Part shown: positions 10,711-30,423 of the stretch, one piece after another
How positions within the stretch are numbered: position 1 is the stretch's first letter
Layout of the letters: each line of letters starts with the position of its first letter
From: Candidatus Roizmanbacteria bacterium CG_4_9_14_0_2_um_filter_38_17
GTDB lineage: Bacteria; Patescibacteriota; Microgenomatia; GCA-00278855
Direction of reading: 5' to 3'
DNA: 42,021 bases
Assembly: GCA_002788855.1 (NCBI GenBank)
Contig: PFSB01000008.1
Location: 1-42,021, forward strand
Position numbers and translations under genes: made by a program
The notes under the pieces: generated by a model
Database searches by the model: none
What the model was told of the DNA's origin: nothing
The model's input: the letters and a program-made list of their open reading frames with translations, nothing else

Positions 10711-10729
10711 GTACATTCCAGGAATGTAC
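10711..10729. repeat. 19-bp perfect inverted repeat
   Basis: GTACATTCC-A-GGAATGTAC lies 7 bases after the stop of the membrane-protein gene. It can form a 9-bp hairpin, but no T-run follows, so it is either a weak terminator or a protein-binding palindrome. Confidence 0.55.
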
Positions 10730-10902
10730 TAAGTTGACATATTAGGTTATGAAAGGCTGGACCTTTCATATTTCGCTTACCCCATCTCACTTGTCTCTTC
10801 ATAAGAAAACTTAGAAGAAATAGCCTGAATATAGTTTTGTAAAATATCTTGCATTGCAATCATTTTAACACTAGCTAGAAGAATTACACTCACGCTCAAC
10901 TT

Positions 10903-13289: not shown

Positions 13290-13499
13290 TATACTTAAAG
13301 TATATGGCAAATAATTATCATCAAATTTTCCGAAAAGAAAGTTTAGCTCAATTAAAAACCCAGGTGCAATTTAATCTGCTCGGAAAAAGAAACTTCGCAA
13401 CTCTTCGCGTATAGAAATTAAAATATCTTACAAAACCTAAATAAGAACTATTGAATAGAATATACTCAAAACGAGATACTGAATTCGCCACACTAACCC

Positions 13500-13531
13500 A
13501 TCAACACCCGGTGTTAACACCGGGTGTTGAT
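13500..13531. repeat. REP-like 32-bp palindrome, copy 1
   Basis: A perfect palindrome with half-site ATCAACACCCGGTGTT. It lies 24 bases before the transposase ATG. It sits within a 36-bp block (13498-13533) that is identical, in the same direction, to the block after the gene (14231-14266). Each half is itself nearly palindromic, so a cruciform or double hairpin is possible. Confidence 0.9.
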
Positions 13532-13555
13532 TAAAATTATGATATACTATATTAT

Positions 13556-14224
13556 ATGCCTTACCGAAAAGAACCTCTTATAATCGGCCAATACTACCAT
13601 ATATTTAACCGAGGAATAGATGGAATGACTATCTTCAAAGAAACTAGTAATTATAGTAGGTTTATGGAACTTCTTAGCTATTATAATCATGTAAATCCTA
13701 ATAAAACTTTTTCGGTTTACAGTAAATCTATACCCTCAATACAACAAAAGATTCTCTCAAGTTTAAATAGTAAAAAACAACTTGTAGAAATTCTATGTTT
13801 TTGTCTTATGCCAAATCACTACCATTTGATTCTACATCAATCACAAGATAACGGAATCTCAACTTTTTTAAGAATTATACAAAATGCATATGCTAAGTAC
13901 TTCAACACTAAGTACAAACGGAGCGGTCCATTAATGCAATCAGCATTTCAGGTTAGATTAATAGACAGCGACGAAAAATTGTATCATGTTTCTAGATACG
14001 TTCATCTTAATCCTTCAACCGCCAATTTAGTTCAAACTGACCAGCTTCAAGATTACTCAATGTCTTCGTATCCATCATACATCGGAAAAACCAGTCTTTC
14101 TTTTATATCAACAAGTCTCATACTGAACAACTTCCATACAAGAAATAATTACAAAAAATTCGTCATAGACCAAGCGGATTATCAAAAAGAGTTAAAACAT
14201 ATAAAAGATCAAATAATTGACTAG
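13556..14224 (+). CDS. REP-associated tyrosine transposase (Y1/HUH family)
   Basis: The 222-residue protein is a single-strand DNA transposase of the RAYT/IS200-like class. Visible are the N-terminal YYHIFNRG motif, the metal-binding HUH motif as HYH (88-90) within MPNHYHLIL, the catalytic tyrosine helix STFLRIIQNAYAKYFN (102-117; Y112 or Y115), and the downstream GPLMQ and YVHLNP motifs (the latter near 160). RAYTs act on REP palindromes, usually as single-copy genes flanked by them. Here identical 32-bp palindromes sit just upstream and downstream, and a third related copy lies at 30396. The frame is complete, so it may be active. The element abuts the decayed HD-domain gene. Confidence 0.92.
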   Translation: MPYRKEPLIIGQYYHIFNRGIDGMTIFKETSNYSRFMELLSYYNHVNPNKTFSVYSKSIPSIQQKILSSLNSKKQLVEILCFCLMPNHYHLILHQSQDNGISTFLRIIQNAYAKYFNTKYKRSGPLMQSAFQVRLIDSDEKLYHVSRYVHLNPSTANLVQTDQLQDYSMSSYPSYIGKTSLSFISTSLILNNFHTRNNYKKFVIDQADYQKELKHIKDQIID

Positions 14225-14232
14225 TTAGATCC

Positions 14233-14264
14233 ATCAACACCCGGTGTTAACACCGGGTGTTGAT
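14233..14264. repeat. REP-like 32-bp palindrome, copy 2
   Basis: Identical to copy 1 and in the same flanking context (CC before, TA after). It starts 8 bases after the transposase stop. Its last base coincides with the end of the remnant HD-domain reading frame, so the element borders or entered the 3' end of that gene. Confidence 0.9.
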
Positions 14265-14711
14265 TAGAATTTATCCTTAAATTCTTCCCACTCCTTCTCA
14301 AATTCTTTTACATCTAATCCTTCATCCATTATTTTTTTGCCTGCATTCTTGGTATACATGTTTATTAAAAAGAACTAAATCAATAATCTTAGATACAGCT
14401 TTATCTTGTCCATGAAGATTTAAACCATACTCATTATTTTTTTAGACCATGTAGAAAATATCCGCCTCGTTATGCTGAATTACCACTTCAATTTCTACCA
14501 GATCATGACAAATTATCATCTGCAACAAGTGAGCTATATTAATTTTTTGCTTAATATATGGGACAAGAAGAATTCCCATCAAAGACATGCGCCATGAATG
14601 TTCAGCAACAGACTCTTGTCTACCATCAGATAGCCAACTATGTCTAAGCTCTCTCTTTAACCCTTCAGCTTTATGGAGAAAATTCAAAATCTGGATAAAG
14701 TCTGCATCCAT
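14264..14711 (-). pseudogene. decayed HD-domain phosphohydrolase (YfbR/HD_3 type)
   Basis: The N-terminal part from ATG 14711 is a good HD-domain sequence: LNFLHKAEGLKRELRHSW, then ESVAEHSWR (first metal histidine) and CHDLVEIE (HD doublet). After this the protein jumps straight to VIQHNEADIF, a segment normally found some 50-70 residues later, and the frame stops at 14442. Further family-like sequence follows in shifted frames, ending in a Glu/Lys-rich tail (KEFEKEWEEFKDKF) at 14264. I read this as an internal deletion plus at least one frameshift. Intact relatives are nucleotide or 5'-deoxynucleotide phosphohydrolases. It follows rpoC by about 20 bases and would be at the end of the rpoBC transcript. 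Confidence 0.7.
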
Positions 14712-14730
14712 GACCACATTCTAACACTTA

Positions 14731-30349: not shown

Positions 30350-30376
30350 TTAGCAGAATAATACCACGACTGCTAA
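30350..30376. promoter_or_regulatory. CIRCE-like HrcA operator
   Basis: TTAGCAGAA-N9-GACTGCTAA: the outer six bases of both half-sites match the CIRCE consensus TTAGCACTC-N9-GAGTGCTAA exactly with the correct 9-base spacer. The right half matches 8 of 9, the left 6 of 9. It ends 2 bases before the hrcA start codon and covers the -10 box, as expected for a repressor site. Confidence 0.85.
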
Positions 30377-30395: not shown

Positions 30396-30423
30396 TAACA
30401 CCCGGTGTTAACACCGGGTGTTA
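30396..30423. repeat. REP-like palindrome, copy 3 (28 bp)
   Basis: A perfect 28-bp palindrome with half-site TAACACCCGGTGTT. It shares the inner 26 bp of the palindromes flanking the transposase at 13.5-14.3 kb. The outer bases differ. It lies between mltG and the hrcA promoter, about 16 kb from the transposase. Confidence 0.85.

Follow-up and report, generated by a model that had tools for sequence, protein, structure and literature searches.

A gene resembling REP-associated transposases (RAYTs) lies between two identical palindromes in the genome of Candidatus Roizmanbacteria bacterium CG_4_9_14_0_2_um_filter_38_17 (assembly GCA_002788855.1, contig PFSB01000008.1; the whole stretch of 42,021 nucleotides that was analyzed is hereafter called the window). 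This arrangement raises the question of what kind of genetic element the gene and its palindromes form together. Descriptions of RAYT/REP systems have so far come mostly from Proteobacteria, together with a small number of other phyla. Our analysis indicates that the locus is very probably a REPtron, namely a gene for a TnpAREP-like HUH single-stranded DNA (ssDNA) endonuclease/ligase with a cognate REP-like palindrome on each side. As alternatives, we considered an insertion sequence, operators, and transcription terminators.

Anatomy of the locus and the encoded protein

The initial annotation described a RAYT-type gene between identical 36-bp blocks, each holding a perfect 32-bp palindrome. 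We recovered exactly this arrangement, with the following features in the window:

13498-13533, + strand: left repeat block, with the palindrome at 13500-13531 and its 26-bp core at 13503-13528
13540-13548, + strand: probable extended -10 promoter box of the RAYT gene, TG-A-TATACT (TGATATACT), as read from the sequence
13556-14224, + strand: RAYT-type HUH/Y1 transposase of 222 aa, with H88, H90, and Y148 (Y-x3-NP motif) intact
14231-14266, + strand: right repeat block, with the palindrome at 14233-14264 and its core at 14236-14261

The two blocks agree at all 36 nucleotides and are part of a direct repeat of 41 nt (13498-13538 and 14231-14271; 40/41 identity), the right block beginning 7 nt past the stop codon of the RAYT gene. 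Within the palindrome, ATCAACACCCGGTGTTAACACCGGGTGTTGAT, the 26-bp core AACACCCGGTGTTAACACCGGGTGTT consists of two 13-nt odd palindromes set head to head, AACACC-C-GGTGTT and its reverse complement. The blocks had also been described as pointing in the same direction, a statement that is nearly meaningless for a palindrome and holds only for its imperfect margins (CC...TTARAATT), which are directly oriented. A search of the window for perfect even palindromes having arms of at least 13 nt gave three, every one of them with the sequence of the RAYT-flanking element, while 20 shuffles of the window yielded none; the 32-bp palindrome is thus not a product of chance. A folding energy of -16.4 kcal/mol (z = -7.3) was computed for the left block as ssDNA. 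The left palindrome extends over the -35 region of the gene, and the putative -10 box sits 7 nt before the ATG, so that the transcript is possibly leaderless.

Adjoining the right palindrome is an HD-domain (HD_3/YfbR-like) gene (14266-14717, - strand), in which the profile matches only positions 2-64 of 165. It looks like a frameshifted remnant, since by eye the rest could be traced in other reading frames as far as the palindrome.

We further analyzed the encoded protein. The 222-aa ORF matched Pfam Y1_Tnp above the gathering score (E 7e-7) and the NCBIfam model REP_Tyr_transpos (NF047646) with an E-value of 2e-14 and 53.5 bits, below the curated cut-off of 80 bits. This RAYT model was the sole NCBIfam family match of the protein and was also matched by all 46 proteins that we aligned. 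The annotated HUH/Tyr active site proved intact: the HUH motif (H88-Y-H90), Q95, and Y148 are invariant in the alignment, and N152-P153 is kept in 43 of the 46 proteins, which gives the Y-x3-NP motif, the signature of the TnpAREP class (Quentin 2018, PMC6006769).

An AlphaFold2 model of the protein (pLDDT 94.5) had TnpAREP bound to a REP hairpin (4ER8) as its top structure match in the PDB (E 2.3e-7, TMt 0.68), followed by the ISDra2 and IS608 transposases of IS200/IS605 (E 1.6e-4 and weaker). The predicted fold is accordingly nearer to TnpAREP than to TnpA of IS200. A sequence-only search of the PDB with the single protein gave no match, and a profile search scored ISDra2 TnpA and 4ER8 at similar E-values; the family was therefore assigned from the combination of motif, fold, and layout. 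With its domain, its fold, the layout of the locus, and the dispersed repeats described below, the gene fits the label of RAYT-type.

Dispersal of the palindromes and their pairing with individual RAYT genes

Genome-wide palindrome counts were obtained by pattern searches of the assembly and of extracted stretches. The 26-bp core was found without mismatch at six sites in the 1,086,880-base assembly, two flanking the RAYT gene and four solitary (C6:7574, window 30397, C9:17654, and C16:38352); allowing up to three mismatches added no site in the assembly, and the backward control found none. The palindrome is thus not confined to the RAYT locus, and the minimal REPtron layout proposed by the initial annotation, a gene flanked on both sides by a palindrome that is also dispersed in the genome, is borne out. 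The solitary copy within the window is the following:

30397-30422, no strand assigned: solitary 26-bp core copy between hrcA and a YceG/MltG-family gene

Another solitary copy overlaps the stop codon with which a sugar-nucleotide dehydratase gene ends, one on C9 follows a gene end, and the last is located beside a MurJ gene at its 3' end. All four are extragenic, one of them touching a stop codon. The six cores are identical, whereas the sequence outside the core is unrelated among the solitary copies; this is the pattern of differing flanks around a shared core that the initial annotation had suggested looking for. The exact 13-nt half alone was found only inside three genes (C13, C22, and C24); these single 13-mers are in-frame TPGV codons of ordinary genes and were rejected as repeat copies. 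Because no lone extragenic 13-mer was present in the genome and the half occurs alone only within genes, the repeated unit is the 26-bp doublet. The 26-mer was not found in 136 class relatives, GTDB genomes, or IMG/VR, the nearest genomes compared being of the same class only and offering no clean empty site.

Between the solitary palindrome of the window and hrcA, we also observed an inverted repeat, TTAGCAG-N13-CTGCTAA (30350-30376), beside a TTGACA promoter. By its sequence, it resembles a CIRCE element.

To place the locus among its paralogues, we considered all Y1-transposase genes of the 1.09-Mb genome, of which there are 18. Pairwise identity among the 17 intact paralogues does not exceed 63%, and a matched left/right palindrome pair of at least 12 nt was present at 14 of the 17 loci tested; the eighteenth RAYT has exact palindrome copies on both sides. 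The palindromes mostly differ from RAYT to RAYT. Those of three other RAYT genes were found at 24 (C24:17816), 21 (C9:41105), and 8 (C16:43431) sites genome-wide, with zero control hits for each, and these other families are single hairpins rather than doublets. The low identity among the paralogues suggests that the genes were not recently multiplied, whereas the palindromes look multiplied. Two further palindromes of this kind lie in the window:

10712-10728, no strand assigned: solitary extragenic palindrome TACATTCCWGGAATGTA of another family, whose owner is the RAYT at C16:43431
10750-10768, no strand assigned: probable solitary palindrome TGAAAGGCTGGACCTTTCA of a third family, two mismatches from one flanking the RAYT at C26:52690

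Only 11 of 38 copies of four families fell inside ORFs by a crude ORF call, mostly overlapping the ends and about three of them deep, compared with 92% of random positions (binomial P below 1e-20 for the extragenic bias). Two deep copies are in frame, one in gatB (L030:2018) and one in a gene for a DUF2298 membrane protein (L102:1501), both in the same genome. The gatB palindrome falls within a protein loop whose length varies and which most relatives have in a shorter form; taken as an empty site at the protein level, this is consistent with insertion, though no more than suggestive.

One RAYT paralogue (L022:10064-10168; G000:C6, near 138,100 or 134,100 as reckoned from the locus offset) has an in-frame TGA after residue 34 with both flanking palindromes intact, and is possibly a decaying RAYT.

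These counts bear on the alternative that the locus is an IS200/IS605-like insertion sequence, whose left- and right-end hairpins would be the palindromes and whose whole unit of ~770 bp would move. Such an element would account for the hairpin at each end, in direct orientation in the window, and for a Y1-family protein with HUH whose next best structure matches are the ISDra2 and IS608 TnpA. However, there is one gene copy per palindrome type, and no near-identical copies of the transposase unit were found among the 17 intact paralogues. Because lone palindromes rather than genes were multiplied, we regard this explanation as unlikely; the TnpAREP signature Y-x3-NP (PMC6006769) and the inverted orientation of the repeats at many related loci (39/94) also speak against it.

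The positions of the solitary copies likewise disfavor the idea that the palindromes are operators, that is, binding sites of the RAYT itself or of another repressor that are selected and not mobile. A symmetrical 26-mer that is perfectly conserved in all six copies, the left copy over the -35 region of the putative RAYT promoter, and the solitary copy upstream of hrcA would all suit a regulator. Copies by the MurJ 3' end, on the dehydratase stop codon, and after a gene end would not, and neither would a different palindrome at nearly every RAYT, two other families with over 20 copies beside unrelated genes, or the copies inside gatB and the DUF2298 gene; we consider operators quite improbable. 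That the palindromes are terminators or mRNA 3'-end hairpins repeated by happenstance is highly improbable: several copies do lie near 3' ends of genes, and the hairpin is strong, but there is no T-tract, a scan found no terminator-like site, a copy with the same sequence precedes the RAYT gene, and the identity of each family is private to its RAYT.

To quantify this private matching, we used the longest word common to the left and right flanks as a measure. Across 46 loci (17 from the same genome and 29 from class relatives), the shared word averaged 17.6 nt within a locus versus 7.4 nt between loci, the own partner was the best in 41 of 46, and the observed mean was reached by 0 of 10,000 permutations. 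Similar values were obtained with 73 loci from named genomes, of which almost every one belongs to Patescibacteria and many to Microgenomates (16.8 nt within versus 7.2 nt between; own partner best in 56/73; 0/10,000 permutations). The two sets partly overlap (L034 and L107 are the same DNA), which limits the independence of the second as a replication. At some loci of both tests, such as L035, L055, L062, L019, and L112, no palindrome pair was detected. Similarity between palindromes was weakly correlated with similarity between proteins (Mantel rho 0.18, 0/2000). An own repeat family per RAYT, as in REPtrons, is thus observed here.

The palindrome-RAYT-palindrome layout recurs across Patescibacteria; related CPR transposases, far from lacking palindromes, are bracketed by palindromes of their own. 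In the complete genome of Candidatus Beckwithbacteria (CP011210.1), which belongs to the same class, the palindrome of its RAYT was found at seven sites, two flanking the RAYT and five elsewhere. This and the other named relatives agree with the CPR origin assumed by the initial annotation.

In three related RAYTs (L017:5467, L023:616, and L028:6909), an extra in-frame copy of the own palindrome closely follows the catalytic Tyr, and Q-A stands there in place of N-P. In-gene REPs of a similar kind have been reported for TnpAREP subclass 2.4.

The missing tag and a possible mechanism

Most REPs fall into groups defined by a tag at one end, either GTAG or CGTC (Di Nocera 2013, PMC3733652), and cleavage by the E. 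coli TnpAREP requires the GTAG tag (PMC8266576), which is recognized by W94, Q95, E100, H101, and R104 (PMC6006769). We inspected up to 6 nt around the 38 copies from the four families and found GTAG once and GTGG and CGTC not at all; GT[AG]G was near 36 of 94 flanking units, which is about chance level by estimate. In a profile alignment to 4ER8 inspected by eye, only Q95 of the five contact residues is kept and the other four are replaced. Because the GTAG/CGTC tag is missing, activity is not transferable from the E. coli enzyme. Atypical structures also flank the RAYT genes of TnpAREP subclass 2.6 in Bacteroidetes (Quentin 2018, PMC6006769), so tag-less RAYT repeats are not unprecedented.

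Within the clade of the window (29 class relatives and the genes of the same genome), many flanks consist of a hairpin and a half-hairpin block, TTGACACCTNNGGA, ~9-12 nt inward. In the flanks of L036-L058, this block overlaps the -35 box of the RAYT gene. By eye, the block seems to change with the hairpin arms, as GACGCTCC accompanies CGTTCC-type arms in L043 and GCAACTT accompanies CAACC arms in L052. From its sequence and position, it could be a guide or cleavage site and an autorepression operator in one. We tentatively raise the possibility of a distinct CPR RAYT branch in which the hairpin is recognized without a tetranucleotide guide.

Under the REPtron reading, the palindrome would fold as a hairpin when the strands part during replication or transcription, and the RAYT would bind this hairpin, nick beside it via Y148, and rejoin it elsewhere as ssDNA. 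The ~26-bp palindrome, rather than the gene, would thereby spread to new intergenic sites, and the gene itself would rarely move. Since there is no GTAG-type foot, the hairpin as such is expected to be what the enzyme recognizes. With one private palindrome family served by each RAYT, up to 18 parallel systems would exist in the 1.09-Mb genome. Autorepression by the RAYT is also possible, given that the left palindrome overlies the -35 region; hits of a promoter scan were no more numerous than in shuffles, which makes this step a weak one.

Significance and comparison with known systems

Within the limited coverage of the literature that we searched, we found no description of RAYT/REP in CPR bacteria, in line with the earlier remark that such units are little described in these genomes. 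With 18 enzyme genes, most of them framed by different palindromes, the locus seems to represent a known type of parasitic repeat in a branch that has received little description. It is best read as part of a RAYT/REP system of Microgenomates-type CPR in which each genome carries many REPtrons in parallel and the palindromes are near-perfect, present in few copies, and devoid of a tag. The ~100 natural enzyme-hairpin pairs, with their sequence divergence, offer a set for studying how HUH enzymes read hairpins without a GTAG guide. Why minimal genomes retain so many RAYT-type genes is also a question for genome-reduction theory.

As in the known RAYT/REP systems (TnpAREP REPtrons; PMC2817692, PMC6006769), a gene for an HUH and Tyr protein with Y-x3-NP is flanked by a repeat that is also scattered over extragenic sites, every transposase is paired with a repeat family of its own, several such families coexist in a genome, and paralogues share little identity. 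In contrast to these systems, the palindromes lack the GTAG/GTGG tag and are perfect or nearly so, the protein falls under the NCBIfam RAYT cut-off, and one 1.09-Mb CPR genome carries 18 Y1/RAYT-type genes. Copy number also differs: REPs usually exceed 100 copies per genome (Nunvar 2010, PMC2817692), whereas we counted 6 here and 24, 21, and 8 for the other families, 24 being the maximum among the families counted.

TnpAREP subclass 2.6 (RAYT group 5; PMC6006769) is alike by description, with atypical flanking structures that have copies elsewhere in the genome, but belongs to Bacteroidetes, another phylum than the present CPR host. IS200/IS605 elements (IS608, ISDra2) share the Y1 HUH fold and hairpins near both ends, and differ in that here the lone palindromes, not the gene, were multiplied and the TnpAREP structure matches better. 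REPINs (REP doublets; PMC3116915) resemble the present repeat, which is likewise built from two short palindromes in inverted order and has no extragenic copy of the 13-mer alone. Unlike REPINs, it has no spacer between the units (26 bp in total), no GTAG, and a low copy number. By this analogy, the 26-bp doublet is like a minimal REPIN without a spacer.
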